From Candidatus Tumulicola sp. (GTDB lineage: Bacteria; Vulcanimicrobiota; Vulcanimicrobiia; Vulcanimicrobiales; Vulcanimicrobiaceae), in the NCBI GenBank assembly GCA_036490475.1, contig DASXDT010000005.1, positions 744,001-808,000 on the forward strand: a DNA stretch of 64,000 bases. Direction: 5' to 3'. Position numbers and translations under genes: made by a program. Shown here piece after piece: positions 50,830-64,000 of the stretch. The notes under the pieces are model-generated. The model ran no database searches. It saw nothing but the letters and a program-made list of their open reading frames with translations, and was not told where the DNA came from. The number at the start of each line of letters is the position of its first letter. Within the stretch, counting starts at the first letter, position 1.

Positions 50830-51558
50830 GTGCGCCGATTCGTGTTACGCCTGCTTCTTATCGTCTCGATCAGCGCTTGTCTTTCTGCGTTGGCACCTTT
50901 GCGTGCCCAAGCCGGCGCCCCAGCTGTCCCGGCGATCAAGACGTGTACGCTCGAGGAAGGCGTCGGGCGCGTTCGCTTTACCGTAGATCAACCGGACGAT
51001 GCTGAATACGTCCATCTACGACTGCGCTTCTTCGATAAGCAAAAGCAGTGGCTGGCCGACGAACTCATAGAAGCGTGGGGCTTCGACGCTCCCATTCTTC
51101 CGATCGCTGGGCTTTTCGATTCGAGCTATATAGCCTCGGTCGAATGCGCAATCGATGGCTACGATAAAAAGACCGACATGGCGGGTGTCCAACCGTTTGT
51201 TGCGATCGCGAGGCCGAACGCTCCCGGCCGGAAACCGTGCCCCCAGCCACTAGGACTAATCGTCGATGGCGGGGACGATGCTGACTTTGAGGCTGCCCTC
51301 GTTGGGCCTAACTGGATTATGTTTCGCATGCGCGCGACGATCGAGCGACTCCTTAGCGACCGCCCGACGTTCTTCGCCGGCGATGTTTTTTCAGCCACCC
51401 TCGACCGCGCTTCGGAGCAGCGCGCGGTCATCGAAGGAGCGGATGGCCAATCGATAGCGTTACTTTTCGTCAACGTTCGCCCCGGCTTTCATCAGATCGA
51501 CTTTGGGCCGTGGCCAGTCGAAGGGAGCCATCCGTTTTGCTTGCGCACCGGCTTGTAG
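50830..51558 (+). CDS. Secreted hypothetical protein with conserved cysteines
   Basis: A 242-residue protein from GTG 50830 with a signal peptide (FVLRLLLIVSISACLSALAP). The mature part has two beta-rich halves, each beginning near a Cys (KTCTLEEGVGRVRFTVDQP; GRKPCPQPLGLIVDGGDD), which looks like an internal duplication, and a further Cys in SHPFCLRTGL. The family was not recognised. It overlaps the next gene by 22 bases. Confidence 0.7.
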   Translation: MRRFVLRLLLIVSISACLSALAPLRAQAGAPAVPAIKTCTLEEGVGRVRFTVDQPDDAEYVHLRLRFFDKQKQWLADELIEAWGFDAPILPIAGLFDSSYIASVECAIDGYDKKTDMAGVQPFVAIARPNAPGRKPCPQPLGLIVDGGDDADFEAALVGPNWIMFRMRATIERLLSDRPTFFAGDVFSATLDRASEQRAVIEGADGQSIALLFVNVRPGFHQIDFGPWPVEGSHPFCLRTGL

Positions 51559-53363
51559 TCACACTCGCGTTAGCGCTCTTTTATGTGCTGACCGGATGTT
51601 CGGTAACCTGTAATGACCCTGGATTGACGGTTGACGGTTCTGGCAAGATCGTCGTCCGTACCGAAACCGGCTTTATGAGCCCGAATTCAAACATCGTTCG
51701 CTCCATTTCGCAGCTGCCGAATATGCTAAGTGGCGAAGAACATCGTTCATCTTCCCAAGACTACATTCTTTCGAGCGACGGACGTTGGTTGTTTCTTTTG
51801 GAGAACACAGCCGGACATCCCAATCTCGTCTATCGCATCGATCTTGCCACAGGCATTGCGACAGTCATCGGACCCCATGCCGCCCTCGGTGTCTCGAGTT
51901 CTGCCCAAACAACGTCGAATGAAACTTGGATTACGTCCAACGGCACATACATCTATTCTGTAGATCAGAAACGCCCGATCGTCAGCCGTGCGACGCTTTC
52001 TGCGCCTGCAAAGCTTACTCCGTATATCACCGGTTCAAAAACGGGCTTGAGTGGCCCGATTGGAAGCGCTGTCGGTTCGAGCGGAATGTTGTGCATAGTT
52101 CAGGACGCGGCATCGGTGCGTTGCTACGCCGCGGGAGCCCATGGGAACGTAGCGCCCACGAGAACGATCGTCGGCAGCGATTACGGCTTCAGGCAGTTCG
52201 ATGACATCACATTTGGTTCACGCAACGAATTGATTATCGCGGCATCGGATGGGACGGGCCGAATTGGAACTTCGACCCTTGCCTTTTTCGATCTCAGCGA
52301 ACCCCAGCCGCACCTCGTCCGACGCCTTCAAGGGCCGCAAACGGCTCTCCGATTCGTCAATTCGCTAACCGTCAACCGCGCCGGAAACATTTTAGTACTG
52401 CAAAAGGACTCGAATCTATGGGACGCCGCAAGCGAATTGCTCGTCTTCGGCCCGCACCAGCGCGACGACGCTGCGCCGCTGGTCGTACGCGATCCGATTA
52501 CGTCGCTTTCAAATGCCCATCGCATGGCTGCCGCAGAAGGCGGTGACGTCGCCATTCTCGGTTCGGACGGCGTAGCTATATTCCGACACGCCGCAGACCG
52601 CCCGTTGCAAGCGTGGCCCACCGCGCAGGATCTCCCGGCCAGGGGTTGGGATGTCGCGTTCGGAGGCGGCCGCCTAATCATCGCCAATGAGTTCGGCGTC
52701 CCTGTCTCATATAAGATCGCTAATATTGGTAAAACGATCACTTCAAACGGTTCCGGAACTATGGACCTTCACGACCCGGACTTTATATCGTCGGATCGAT
52801 CCGGCCGCATCTATACGGCGTCGACCGCTGGGGTGGTTACGCTCTTACCGCTCGATGTACATGCGGCGACCGGATTCGAAAACGTCCATTTTCGGACGCC
52901 GTTCGGACGGAATTTAAGCGCATTTGCTACCGACGGGGCCGGCCACTCTTATTTTACATCGACGTTTAACGACGCCGTTCTCATCGTGGATCGTTCCGGA
53001 AGAGAGTCGATATTGCGAGGCCCTCGTACACAGCTAAATCACCCGACCGGTTTAGCGGTGGGACGAGACGGAACGCTATACGTTGCGAATTCTGAATCGA
53101 GCAATGTGTTAGCATTCGCGCACGGCACCGCGGGTAACGTCGCGCCGACGGCAAGGATCGAGGGGCCGGCGACCGAGCTCGTGGCACCGCAGTCGCTCGC
53201 TATCGACATCGCTGGGCGGCTCTACGTGTTTGACGGTCCTCAAGGTGGCACCGGATCGGACACCCCTCATTACGTTCGCGTCTTCGGCCCAAATAGCCAA
53301 GGTGACGTGGCTCCCCTAGCCTCGTATCGCGTTCCGGCGAAGTGCTGGACTGATTCTCTTTAG
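51537..53363 (+). CDS. Lipoprotein with NHL-like beta-propeller
   Basis: TTG 51537 is preferred (AAGGGAG 9 bases upstream); GTG 51510 is possible. The N-terminus LALALFYVLTGCSVTC is a lipoprotein signal with Cys in the lipobox. The roughly 608-residue protein carries propeller-type repeats such as SSDGRWLFLLE, LNHPTGLAVGRDGTLYVANS and APQSLAIDIAGRLYVFDG. The last third resembles NHL repeats, implying a surface-bound binding protein. Base composition is less GC-rich than in the neighbours. Confidence 0.8.
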   Translation: MLAHRLVVTLALALFYVLTGCSVTCNDPGLTVDGSGKIVVRTETGFMSPNSNIVRSISQLPNMLSGEEHRSSSQDYILSSDGRWLFLLENTAGHPNLVYRIDLATGIATVIGPHAALGVSSSAQTTSNETWITSNGTYIYSVDQKRPIVSRATLSAPAKLTPYITGSKTGLSGPIGSAVGSSGMLCIVQDAASVRCYAAGAHGNVAPTRTIVGSDYGFRQFDDITFGSRNELIIAASDGTGRIGTSTLAFFDLSEPQPHLVRRLQGPQTALRFVNSLTVNRAGNILVLQKDSNLWDAASELLVFGPHQRDDAAPLVVRDPITSLSNAHRMAAAEGGDVAILGSDGVAIFRHAADRPLQAWPTAQDLPARGWDVAFGGGRLIIANEFGVPVSYKIANIGKTITSNGSGTMDLHDPDFISSDRSGRIYTASTAGVVTLLPLDVHAATGFENVHFRTPFGRNLSAFATDGAGHSYFTSTFNDAVLIVDRSGRESILRGPRTQLNHPTGLAVGRDGTLYVANSESSNVLAFAHGTAGNVAPTARIEGPATELVAPQSLAIDIAGRLYVFDGPQGGTGSDTPHYVRVFGPNSQGDVAPLASYRVPAKCWTDSL

Positions 53364-53435: not shown

Positions 53436-54410
53436 CTAGCGGCTAACGACCGCTGCGAACGGATCGGCAAACGATCCGCTCAGCGTTTGGGTGGCGGTTC
53501 CGCCGGCGGGATAGGCATAGACCAGCACGTTCTTTTTCGAGGCGTCCGGACACGCGACCAGTTTGCCGTCGATTACGTATTGGCCACAGGCGCCGCTGTT
53601 GAGCAGCGTAGTTCCGGTGATCTTACCCGACGCGCTCATCTGATAGATCGCTGGTGTTCCGCCCTCGGTTAGTTGGTCGCCAACCGTCAACGAATTTTTT
53701 GCGAGCTGGACGCCGCCGGCAACATTGATCGTTGCACCGGAAACCGCGACCGTTTTAAACTTGCCCTTCTTAAACGACTGCAGCGAGAAATAGCCGCCGT
53801 TACTGCCATCAACGTATAGCGTATTCTGTTTATAGCCGACAAAGCTGACATAGACGCCGGCATCCGGATAGTTGATGCCGCTGCCGGTGCCGCCCGCGTA
53901 CACTGTGACGCTGCCGGCATCGCCGGTCGTCGATTCGATGTTACCGACGGCGAGATCTCCAGCGTTATCGACGGCGCAACTGTATGGATACTGGCCGGCA
54001 TCGTTCAGCGTCGCGATCGGGGTCGTTCCGCCGTGAGCGTATTCGATCAGGTTCGAATCGTAGGTGTTAACGATCCAGACGTTTCCTTTTTTATCCGAGC
54101 ACTCTCCGGACGGACCGTTGAAGCCGGTCAACGTGCCGGCGGCTTTGAGTTTCGGCCATGAGTACACGTACACGTCGTACGTCTCGGCGTCGGAAACATA
54201 GAGAAGCGCTCCACCGGCGACGTCAGGCTTCATCCAAGAGCGGCTTCGATCTGGTTGCGCGACCGCCCCCGGCTTAAGGCTGAAGCCGTGACCGCTCGTG
54301 AGCGCCGCGGATGGGGAAAAGCCCTGTGAGCCGGCACCGCTGCTGCAAGCGGCCAGCACCGCGCTGCCCGCGACAACGACCGCAAAAGTCTTGAAAAATC
54401 TAGGTTGCAC
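53436..54410 (-). CDS. Lipoprotein with beta-propeller-like repeats
   Basis: 324 residues from GTG 54410, preceded by GAGGAG; a longer ATG start is less likely. The signal FAVVVAGSAVLAACSSGAG has a clear lipobox. The mature part contains blades such as LLYVSDAETYDVYVYSWPKL and GPSGECSDKKGNVWIVNTYD, with Gly/Ser/Thr-rich loops. It resembles the other secreted propeller proteins of this window. No catalytic residues are evident; the role is probably surface binding or structural. Confidence 0.8.
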   Translation of the reverse strand: MQPRFFKTFAVVVAGSAVLAACSSGAGSQGFSPSAALTSGHGFSLKPGAVAQPDRSRSWMKPDVAGGALLYVSDAETYDVYVYSWPKLKAAGTLTGFNGPSGECSDKKGNVWIVNTYDSNLIEYAHGGTTPIATLNDAGQYPYSCAVDNAGDLAVGNIESTTGDAGSVTVYAGGTGSGINYPDAGVYVSFVGYKQNTLYVDGSNGGYFSLQSFKKGKFKTVAVSGATINVAGGVQLAKNSLTVGDQLTEGGTPAIYQMSASGKITGTTLLNSGACGQYVIDGKLVACPDASKKNVLVYAYPAGGTATQTLSGSFADPFAAVVSR

Positions 54411-54497
54411 GTGAATTCGCTCCTCTAACGTCTCTGGTAGTCGAGGCAATAGTAAAGGAGCCGCCGGAACGGCGTCATGCGTAAATTACCCAGCCGC

Positions 54498-55793: not shown

Positions 55794-55924
55794 CGCCTTT
55801 GCAGCTTTTCACGCCGCTTTTGAAGTGCCTCCGGGGTCTACCGCCCGGCACCCCCTCAAGGGTGCGGCTGCTACCGCGTCCAACGCGCGCACCTAGCATC
55901 CAAAACGCGAGAAGGGCAAACCCG

Positions 55925-56419
55925 ATGAAACGGCTTTACAACCTGGCTATTTTGTTTACGATCGCCGTCATTTGCAGCCTTGGGTCATCGACCGCCGCGT
56001 ACGCGGAAGACGTAGACGGCGTTCAAATAACCGAGGCCGATGTCAAGCAGCTTTTGACCGCACTGCACACCGCACTAAAACCGAACGATAGTACCATTCC
56101 GCTTCACGTCGCGATAAAGCCGGCGCCGCAGATGCCGAAATACGCTTCCGATTGGTTTTACGCGGGCATATCGACTTCGAGCTCGGGGTCGCGAACGATG
56201 ACGGTTTGGACGAACACCGACTTGAACGGTGACGCTCTCCGCAACGCCATCACTGCGAGCTTTCTCGTCGCTCTCTCGGACGGCGGCTACGGGGGAACCG
56301 CGTTCAAGCAGCTGTACGACGTTGAGGCCGCAAGAGATGCGCAACTGCCTTCGGATGCGCCCAATCCATACCTCAACCGGCAGAAGCTCGGGGCGGCGTT
56401 AAGCGACCTATTGAAGTAA
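55925..56419 (+). CDS. Secreted small-domain protein (paralogue of the C-terminal domain of the 62857 gene)
   Basis: 164 residues from ATG 55925, with AAGGG 8 bases upstream and a signal peptide ending AAYAED. The mature domain opens VQITEADVKQLLTAL and ends AQLPSDAPNPYLNRQKL. It aligns over its full length with the C-terminal 130 residues of the protein at the right window edge (ITFSAHDVATLI ... AALPADTPNPYKNRLAL). No known family was recognised. Its stop overlaps the next gene as TAATG. Confidence 0.78.
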   Translation: MKRLYNLAILFTIAVICSLGSSTAAYAEDVDGVQITEADVKQLLTALHTALKPNDSTIPLHVAIKPAPQMPKYASDWFYAGISTSSSGSRTMTVWTNTDLNGDALRNAITASFLVALSDGGYGGTAFKQLYDVEAARDAQLPSDAPNPYLNRQKLGAALSDLLK

Positions 56420-56892
56420 TGACTCTGTTATCGAAGATGGCACTCGTGGCGGCCTGCGTCATTATTCCTGGAGTTGCACTAGCGGCGCTTGTCGCCATCG
56501 CTCTCCTGAACGTTCCATCGAACGACGGAATTCTACAAACCAATACAGTCTTATCCGACGACGCGAATGATGCAATCGTGTTACGCGAATTGCGAAAGCG
56601 CGGATCCGATCTCAGTAAACCGACCGATATCGTATTTTATCTGTACATTCCGAGCCTTCAAGACGCTCGCTCTTCCGTGCAAGAATTAGATCGCGACGGA
56701 CTGTCGGCGCACTACGAACAGCCGCTCGGGCGCTTGTCGGACGGCTCATTCGAGAAGAGATACTCGGTGATCGCGCACGCTCGCGCGACGCCCACCATCG
56801 AACACCTTCGCTCCTATCGCACGATTTTTAGAAATCTCGCGAGACGGTTTAGGGGCGAATACGACGGGTGGGAAGCCGCCGTAGCCAAGTGA
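56419..56892 (+). CDS. Membrane-anchored RraB-like protein
   Basis: A 157-residue protein with an N-terminal membrane helix (about 6-32), then a domain with NDAIVLRELRKRGSDLSKPT and DIVFYLYIPSLQDARSSV, which matches the RraB/regulator-of-RNase-E fold. RraB in E. coli binds RNase E and changes its specificity. The membrane anchor and a likely periplasmic domain are unusual, so this may be a reuse of the fold. It is translationally coupled to the secreted domain protein. Confidence 0.72.
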   Translation: MTLLSKMALVAACVIIPGVALAALVAIALLNVPSNDGILQTNTVLSDDANDAIVLRELRKRGSDLSKPTDIVFYLYIPSLQDARSSVQELDRDGLSAHYEQPLGRLSDGSFEKRYSVIAHARATPTIEHLRSYRTIFRNLARRFRGEYDGWEAAVAK

Positions 56893-60936: not shown

Positions 60937-62058
60937 TTACTGCTCGAGCACCTGAACGTTGTTGTCGTTGTCGTCATTGAAATAGATCTTGGTGTCGGAG
61001 TTCGTCGTGCCGGTCGCAACGATGCCGAAAATCGATCCGGCAGGCCCCTTATCGACGTTACGGACGTCCAGCACCTTGCCGGCGGCCGATAGTTCGATCA
61101 TGAGGTTATTCCCGTCCGAATCGAGCGTGTTTCCGACAATGAGGTTGCCGTTGGGAAGTAGCGCCGTGCTGATCGGACCGTTTAACGGGTTACCGGAGAA
61201 GACGATTCTCGCATCACCGGCCGACGGGCCGGTGAACTTCATGCCGTTGCTCTGGGCGGTGATTCCGCCGGCCGCGATCTTCGTGACGTTTTTGAACGCG
61301 ACGATCGAATTGTTTTGCCCGTCGGCGAAGTACAGCGTGTCGACGCTAGCATCGTATGCGAGCCCGGAGGGTGCCAATGCAGTTCCGGGCTTGCCATGAT
61401 TCACCGGAAAACCTTTAGCGATAACGTCGTACGTAAACTTTGAAGCCAGGTTGATGCGCACGATCGTGCCGGTACCGGCATTGGTGGCGTAAAACGCCGG
61501 TGCGCCGCTGGTCGGCGCGGCGTAAATCTGGCCCCATGGTTGGCTGAACGGCTTGCCTTTGATATTGACCAGAAGTTTGCCGGCCGCATCCAATACGGGA
61601 TTATCGTTTGCGACCATCGATGCCGCCCAGATGGTGTCGGCGCCGTCGAGGGCGAGTGCATCGCATCCCTTTAACGTTTTGTCGGAGGATATGTGTAGCG
61701 GAACAGAGTTTGCCACCGGATGCAGCGCGATGATCGATCGACCGGTTCCCTGTACGCCGGACTTCGCATTGAAATTGCAGACGACGAGATCTCCCTGTGT
61801 GAAACCTCCAATGGTCTGTGGCGCGATCGCCAAGCCATATGGATTTCCCGCACCGTTTACCGGATCCACCGTCGATCCGATCACGACTTGGTGCTTGAGT
61901 GTTTTCAACACCGACCCGCCGCCCTTAGCAGCAGATCGTACCGGCTGTTCCATCGCCGGTAGAGTGGTCGACGGCGAGCCGGCGTTGTTAGCGCCGCACG
62001 CGCTGGCTAGAATAACCGCTGCGAGAGCGGCAAACCGGCCCATTGTTATACGATTCAT
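60937..62058 (-). CDS. Lipoprotein with NHL-like propeller repeats
   Basis: A 373-residue protein with GAGGAG just before ATG 62058. The signal ALAAVILASACGANNAG has a lipobox Cys. Propeller blades include NPYGLAIAPQTIGGFTQGDL, PSGLAYDASVDTLYFADG and ISTALLPNGNLIVGNTLDSD. The C-terminus is Asp/Asn-rich (FNDDNDNNVQ), suggesting calcium binding. It resembles the 53436 lipoprotein in build. A perfect 28-bp palindrome lies 86 bases upstream. Confidence 0.82.
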   Translation of the reverse strand: MNRITMGRFAALAAVILASACGANNAGSPSTTLPAMEQPVRSAAKGGGSVLKTLKHQVVIGSTVDPVNGAGNPYGLAIAPQTIGGFTQGDLVVCNFNAKSGVQGTGRSIIALHPVANSVPLHISSDKTLKGCDALALDGADTIWAASMVANDNPVLDAAGKLLVNIKGKPFSQPWGQIYAAPTSGAPAFYATNAGTGTIVRINLASKFTYDVIAKGFPVNHGKPGTALAPSGLAYDASVDTLYFADGQNNSIVAFKNVTKIAAGGITAQSNGMKFTGPSAGDARIVFSGNPLNGPISTALLPNGNLIVGNTLDSDGNNLMIELSAAGKVLDVRNVDKGPAGSIFGIVATGTTNSDTKIYFNDDNDNNVQVLEQ

Positions 62059-62856: not shown

Positions 62857-64000
62857 TTAGTGTTGCGGAAGATACGATTCGAAGATCTTGCGTACTTGCG
62901 CGGTCAGAGCCAGACGATTCTTGTACGGGTTCGGCGTATCTGCCGGGAGCGCGGCATCTTCTGCGGCGAGCCGGTCGTATATCGCCTTCCACTGCGGACC
63001 GGCAAACCCCGTAGCCATACATGCCAATTCCAGTGCGGAACGAAGCGCCCAGGCTCCATCGGCAGTTTTTGCCGGGTACGGTTGGACCATCCAAATCAGC
63101 GCTTCCTTCGACGCGGGATCGATTCCGGCGAAATGCGCGACGGGATCGTAGGCCAGCATTTCCGCCGGACCTCTTGCCCGTAACTGCAGCGTGATCTTCG
63201 GACTCTTCTCGGCATCTTCCGTCGCTCGTATGAGCGTTGCAACGTCGTGAGCGGAAAACGTGATCTGATTTGCATCGGGTGCTTGCGGAGCGGGCGAAGC
63301 CACCGGTGACGAGGCTTGACTGCCCTTTTGCACGGTTAGCGAGCTGTGCGTATCGAAAAAGAAATCACGTCGATCTTCGCCGGCACTGCATTGTGCGTGT
63401 ACGACCGTCATTGCCATTGGATCGTGCGTGGCCGAGTCGGGTAGAAACTCTTGCGTCGCAGACTTCCAATAGCCACCGCTTCCGCAATCAGCATGCGCGA
63501 GATACGTGTCGATCCACAGTGTATTCGACACTACCACCGAGGGTCGAATCCATATCGCCCGCTCGCGGGACGTTCCGTCGTTCGGCGTTGCCGGTGGCCC
63601 GGGCGTCAACAAGTTTAATGTACTTTGACCGGCGAGCAGCTGGATGAAATCGAGTTTGTTCGCGTGGAATTCGTAGACCCACCCGTATGGAAGCGAGCGG
63701 TATGTGAGATCGAGAGACCCATCGTCGCTATTGGTCGACTCGCGGACCGCAGGTCCAAGCTTGGTTCTCACCTCATCCGGCGTCAGTCCGAACGTTATGC
63801 CATTTGGATCGGTAAAATCTACACTGTTGAAGCGACCGAGAACCGTCACCGATTGCGCGACGTTGTTTTTTACGATCACGTCGGTAAACGTGCCGCCGCC
63901 GTGCGTCAAATAACGCCACACCACGGTGCCACCATAGGAACTCACGAAAATCGGATCTCCCAATGTGGGCCGTAGATCGCCCATGGGCTGACCGATGGAA
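62857..64000 (-). CDS. BamE/SmpA-like repeat protein with new C-terminal domain (5' end outside window)
   Basis: The frame is open through the right edge (SIGQP precedes the Met at 63984), so the N-terminus is missing. Two BamE/SmpA-like modules are visible: MGDLRPTLGDPIFVSSYGGT and FGLTPDEVRTKLGPAVREST. A middle region with cysteines (HADCGSGGYW, HAQCSAGED) and a Ser/Pro-rich linker (about SPVASPAPQAPD) lead to the C-terminal 130-residue domain shared with the 55925 gene (AALPADTPNPYKNRLAL). It is probably exported. The function is unknown. Confidence 0.75.
   Translation of the reverse strand, partial: SIGQPMGDLRPTLGDPIFVSSYGGTVVWRYLTHGGGTFTDVIVKNNVAQSVTVLGRFNSVDFTDPNGITFGLTPDEVRTKLGPAVRESTNSDDGSLDLTYRSLPYGWVYEFHANKLDFIQLLAGQSTLNLLTPGPPATPNDGTSRERAIWIRPSVVVSNTLWIDTYLAHADCGSGGYWKSATQEFLPDSATHDPMAMTVVHAQCSAGEDRRDFFFDTHSSLTVQKGSQASSPVASPAPQAPDANQITFSAHDVATLIRATEDAEKSPKITLQLRARGPAEMLAYDPVAHFAGIDPASKEALIWMVQPYPAKTADGAWALRSALELACMATGFAGPQWKAIYDRLAAEDAALPADTPNPYKNRLALTAQVRKIFESYLPQH

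Follow-up and report, generated by a model that had tools for sequence, protein, structure and literature searches.

Does the short exported protein encoded at positions 55925-56419 belong to a new domain family, and what might a domain used both alone and fused to other parts do outside the cytoplasm? The question is raised by a stretch of 64,000 nucleotides of a Candidatus Tumulicola genome (hereafter the window), in which the first-pass annotation had pointed to a candidate new domain family, occurring with a signal peptide and also fused behind BamE-like repeats. The reading favored here, and held with moderate confidence, is that the domain, about 137 residues long, defines an unnamed exported family of soil Eremiobacterota, and is a zincin-like, non-catalytic binding module, which probably shares an envelope target with the repeats.

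Copies of the domain in one genome

The stand-alone ORF (164 aa, plus strand) begins with an ATG at 55925 and ends with a TAA stop at 56419. A longer ORF, starting from a TTG at 55799, is possible; with the ATG at 55925 a classical signal peptide is obtained. This predicted N-terminal segment (MKRL...AYA, 55925-56005, plus strand), as read from the sequence, carries two basic residues followed by a hydrophobic maximum of 2.73 (12-residue Kyte-Doolittle). The remaining 137 residues and the stop codon (56006-56419, plus strand) make up the domain, as assigned by homology and by the structure prediction discussed below.

The second copy is the C-terminus of a protein of 429 aa, encoded on the minus strand by a gene which runs past the right edge of the window (positions 806857-808146 of contig C5, equivalent to 62857-64146 of the window), and for which a plausible signal peptide is predicted. 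With its stop codon, the fused copy spans 62857-63276 (minus strand). The end-to-end alignment claimed for the two proteins is borne out by BLASTP: the stand-alone protein and the ~139 C-terminal residues of the right-edge protein (62860-63276, minus strand) are identical at 47 of 147 columns (32%, E 7e-13), the shared stretch reading LPSDAPNPYLNR in the former and LPADTPNPYKNR in the latter. The stand-alone query recovered the right-edge copy in a whole-genome search as well (E 1.4e-10), and a third, diverged paralogue (L103) is found on another contig (C6:254771-255076, E 5.4e-12). These searches, and the further members of the family, rule out that the two window copies are alike by chance. 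A tentative additional copy, G000:C5:496502, has an E-value of 0.07 and an internal stop, and has been judged a chance match. Both architectures described at first pass, one with a (predicted) signal peptide and one fused, have thus been found.

Nothing above chance was found in Pfam, NCBIfam and PHROGs for 20 members of the family, and neither PDB sequences nor PADLOC provided a credible match. Hits to DUF348, AbiEii (0.01), the Ig-like 9ncf (0.0036) and FapA (3e-4) were set aside, being below cut-off or isolated. The last of them would make the stand-alone protein a chaperone of functional amyloid of the FapA type, a view resting on 21 bits in the NCBIfam model. The curated cut-off, however, is 100 bits, and the match takes in the signal peptide; once the signal peptide is removed, NCBIfam returns nothing for the domain at E<=1, the fused copy is not matched by FapA, and we regard this identification as extremely improbable.

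The stand-alone gene is followed by a gene encoding an RraB domain (56419-56892, plus strand; PF06877, 1.8e-15), the start of which overlaps the upstream stop by one base; the two genes are probably co-transcribed. E. coli RraB is an RNase E inhibitor. The RraB-domain protein of the window has a hydrophobic segment at the N-terminus, and hence may reside, unlike E. coli RraB, outside the cytoplasm. RraB is not paired with the domain gene in any of the other neighbourhoods examined (22 loci). A second, weaker RraB is found in the same genome (C5:100325-100564), and the sister genome has one too. Exported or lipoprotein-like proteins with the look of beta-propellers (NHL/SMP-30-like) are encoded nearby, at 51510-53363, 53436-54449 and 60937-62058; the two scanned gave weak or no Pfam matches.

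Distribution and constraint of the family

Used as query, the stand-alone domain found matches in 20 of the 99 genomes of the same taxonomic family at E<=0.01. A profile of 20 rows (A1), from which 4 of 24 matches were omitted (L020, a fragment, and L024, L025 and L028, weak and with stops), reached 26 of the order's 103 genomes and 31 of the phylum's 149 (E<=0.001). With a profile of 23 rows (A4), lacking the near-copies L014 and L026, members were found in 35 of the 149 phylum genomes at E<=0.01; 25 domains in 22 genomes, with E 1e-34 or less, are full-length, whereas the remaining matches are incomplete or weak. Strong members belong to two families (f1 and f3) of one class, and the named relatives are MAGs of Candidatus Eremiobacterota or Eremiobacteria. 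No named domain being matched by the profile and more members having been found, the proposal of a new domain family stands.

Among other phyla, in pattern-based contig scans which distant members would escape, the stand-alone query found no relative; a scan with a further profile (A2) found four, all of them Eremiobacterota. Members have been seen only in Eremiobacterota, the other phyla having been covered shallowly. Viral contigs, phages and plasmids, searched with queries suited to close relatives, contained none.

All 10 pairs formed by five closely related members have dN/dS values of 0.04-0.14 (dS being near saturation where it is larger); these are thus real, constrained proteins, under purifying selection. 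A hydrophobic N-terminal segment (12-residue Kyte-Doolittle value of at least 1.84, with starts picked by eye) is present in all 20 A1 members. Across 22 loci and the window stretch no gene neighbourhood is shared by the whole family, and repeated arrangements occur only between close relatives; maps are rough at 4 of the 22 loci (L066, L089, L092 and L098), where a longer overlapping frame displaced the domain gene. In two genomes the domain gene (L013 and L015, mapped as L091 and L092) lies within a conserved gene run (clusters c13-c17), which presumably includes, by sequence appearance, mfd-, foldase- and mazG-like genes.

A defined, foldable and, by prediction, exported domain family is thus provided by a phylum with very few cultures, and is missing from the libraries searched.

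Predicted fold and the zinc site

Modelling of the domain from A1 with AlphaFold2 gave a confident structure (pLDDT 95.3, pTM 0.89), in which a helix, three strands and three helices succeed one another (H-E-E-E-H-H-H). In a separate model of the whole right-edge protein (pLDDT 87.3), the fused copy (residues 270-394) has the same order of elements. Structural neighbours are mostly of the zincin type, as are, in our own classification, 42 of the 50 VIA-align rows listed (39 besides the three for M. tuberculosis PrpR). The best are IrrE (3dte, Z 6.2, rmsd 4.5, 106 residues aligned; 3dti, 5.9) and PprI (8sln, 5.8). Below Z 8, the tool warns that a match may reflect a mere common arrangement. According to this view, the domain would be an independent, new small alpha/beta family, unrelated in evolution to peptidases, which happens to pack one helix against a small sheet and to continue with helices. 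Foldseek fits in with it, as no PDB entry is matched at E<=0.001 and the best zincin row (3e11, E 0.18) is preceded by non-zincin ones, and so do profile-profile comparisons (hhalign), which give no signal against M78 (E 0.76) or Zincin_1 (E 0.15) sequences of the same phylum, with alignments of 4 and 10 rows, respectively. Yet, the VIA-align neighbours come from many zincin families, SprT and IrrE-like proteins recur in the viral list (many BFVD rows), and every one of the 23 members has a G-x-x-G following the motif-equivalent helix, where Asp-zincins carry HEXXHXXGXXD, according to PMC3890501. An independent origin of the arrangement is accordingly considered possible, albeit rather unlikely. 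Since zincins dominate among the neighbours, while Foldseek values are weak, Z is near 6 and profiles add no support, the predicted fold is graded as probably zincin-like. The family, unnamed as it is, would then probably have a fold of a type already known.

In zincin metallopeptidases (MEROPS clan MA), the HEXXH motif, with two His as zinc ligands and the catalytic Glu, is carried by the helix that follows the sheet. In the corresponding helix of the model (residues 75-93) no conserved His occurs at columns 78-93, and Glu is found at column 87 in 6 of 23 members; HExxH itself is present in none of the 20 A1 and none of the 23 A4 members. As stated in PMC3890501, zincins have a third ligand further on, and the Asp-zincin motif is HEXXHXXGXXD. 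When G94 (numbering of the 137-residue stand-alone domain) is set by hand on the Gly of this motif, the ligand positions are mostly occupied by Leu/Glu, Leu, Met and Gly; shifting the register by one residue, also by hand, places Met-Glu-x-x-Cys at these positions in a subgroup. In either of these hand-set registers, the aligned residues provide no usual zinc site, and the domain therefore probably binds something rather than cuts.

G94, G97, D111 and R125 are invariant in all 23 A4 rows, Y104 and Y122 are found in 21 of 23 members, K101 in 19, D105 and D120 in 17 each. The conservation of Asp111, Arg125, Tyr104, Tyr122, Lys101, Asp105 and Asp120 could mean that the zincin-like scaffold carries a new active site, making the domain an enzyme. 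The invariant residues may, however, merely hold the helices together, and diverged paralogues with an additional C-terminal part (see below) match only about the first 105 positions of the model, meaning that part of the residue set is dispensable there. A new active site looks improbable to us.

In the favored reading, the domain would be a minimal zincin-like fold, formed by a helix, three strands, the equivalent of the HExxH helix and two more helices. The usual catalytic zinc could not be held, and the domain may serve for binding outside the cytoplasm; its former active-site helix, with the invariant Gly, Gly, Asp and Arg and the near-invariant Tyr residues, would play a structural role or line a ligand pocket. 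Should the fold be as predicted, the family would be another protease scaffold without a metal site, reused for binding.

Architectures, partners and known systems

The tree was built from the 25 full-length domains; 11 of them occur alone and 14 in fusions. In the window copy the domain is C-terminal to a duplicated BLIP/BamE-type module and a middle part, in L012 and L017 it lies behind TPRs (L012: TPR_2, 1.9e-8), and in L008, L011 and L026 it follows an unnamed exported part of ~180 residues ('...TGLANADSxFA...'), without Pfam match in L011, the member scanned. In L060-L063, from another family of the class, the domain is N-terminal to an unnamed part of ~220 residues, again without Pfam match in the one scanned (L060). 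Two copies in tandem, one of them diverged, are found in L021, L022, L023 and L029; the last three also bear a C-terminal part which looks like BamE ('PGMxRxxVYxLLxxxGL ... FDxxxRVxxv'), as do the more diverged L046, L047, L048, L049, L052 and L057 and the third paralogue, L103. Compared by hhalign with the repeats, this part scored a probability of at most 4.9% in the nine diverged members and L103, and no Pfam match was found in five proteins scanned; its likeness to BamE is therefore a visual impression only.

Stand-alone and fused members are interleaved on the tree, with five changes of state. The fused copy of the window is nested in a clade of stand-alone members (starred support), while the stand-alone copy of the window lies elsewhere. 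The two thus look like old paralogues, rather than the outcome of a recent duplication of one another, and the nesting hints that the domain and the BLIP-type part work together.

In the right-edge protein, the BLIP/BamE-type doublet (63625-64000, minus strand, running off the window edge) is recognized by VIA-align and by the profile match of one repeat to the other (96.4%, E 1.4e-9), which marks a tandem duplication. It has the double-repeat fold of YjgB (DUF4309; 4ygt, Z 13.8, rmsd 2.6, 128 residues aligned), is close to the two modules preceding SCP/CAP domains (4ifa, Z 11.1; 4h0a, Z 10.6) and, more weakly, to BamE (5wam, Z 5.5). The label of BamE-like repeats given at first pass was hence right in kind. 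No Pfam family is matched at E<=1 by the part of the doublet within the window or by the separate homologues L069 and L076. A middle part with a helix and long strands (63352-63528, minus strand; model residues 178-236) separates the doublet from the domain; in related genomes, its homologues are the C-terminal part of secreted proteins encoded on their own. Doublet plus middle part have relatives in 21 of the 99 genomes of the family, the window's own included, mostly as separate secreted proteins. These form, with the right edge of the window, a separate unnamed secreted family of Eremiobacterota (L069-L087), in which the doublet is followed by a part of ~80 residues with two conserved Cys, often ending with '...FYFDITxYFGKL'.

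Two related genomes carry both halves of the fusion as individual genes, located on different contigs (G006, 58% and 53% identity; G076, 42% and 53%), which, by the logic of gene fusion, hints at joint action and makes the BLIP/BamE-type protein a candidate partner of the domain. Co-occurrence of domain and BLIP-type protein is borderline (9 genomes shared, 5.5 expected, P 0.051, in 99 genomes). The BLIP/BamE-type fold serves protein-protein contacts, and in the right-edge protein domain and double repeat would probably have an envelope target in common. A broader conjecture, which we consider doubtful, is that a metallopeptidase scaffold was retained without its zinc site and turned into a general exported recognition domain, placed behind TPRs, BLIP/BamE-type doublets and other parts; pseudo-peptidase and doublet could then form an envelope sensor or inhibitor capturing a peptide or a protease.

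In the literature on the phylum and on inactive zincins, subscription papers and preprints falling mostly outside the search, no paper on the domain family was found. The family is new to the libraries searched; neither the predicted fold type nor the notion of a dead zincin is new. The window repeats have the fold of YjgB, of the CAP-associated N-terminal modules, of BamE and of BLIP, but differ in lacking a Pfam match and in that a helix-strand segment and the zincin-like domain come after them. The best structural neighbour of the latter is the N-terminal domain of IrrE/PprI (Peptidase_M78, PF06114), with the same order of helix, sheet and helices. IrrE is cytoplasmic; the domain is instead predicted to be exported, and lacks HExxH, any similarity to IrrE in sequence or profile, and an HTH or GAF-like part. 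The mini-zincin Zincin_1 (PF06262, Acel_2062; 3e11, Z 4.0, 78 residues aligned) is likewise small, with three strands preceding the motif helix, but the domain lacks HEXXHXXGXXD and has two extra C-terminal helices. Acel_2062 is described, in PMC3890501, as a minimal three-stranded zincin without signal peptide. M. tuberculosis PrpR offers a precedent for the reading favored here: according to PMC6765138, it resembles IrrE, does not conserve the HExxH residues and binds CoA, with its IrrE-like DIII domain participating in ligand binding. The entry 6d2s, which we take to be that of PrpR, aligns with Z 4.5. PrpR differs in being a transcription factor that contains an iron-sulphur cluster and a CoA cavity, and no sequence similarity to the domain was found.
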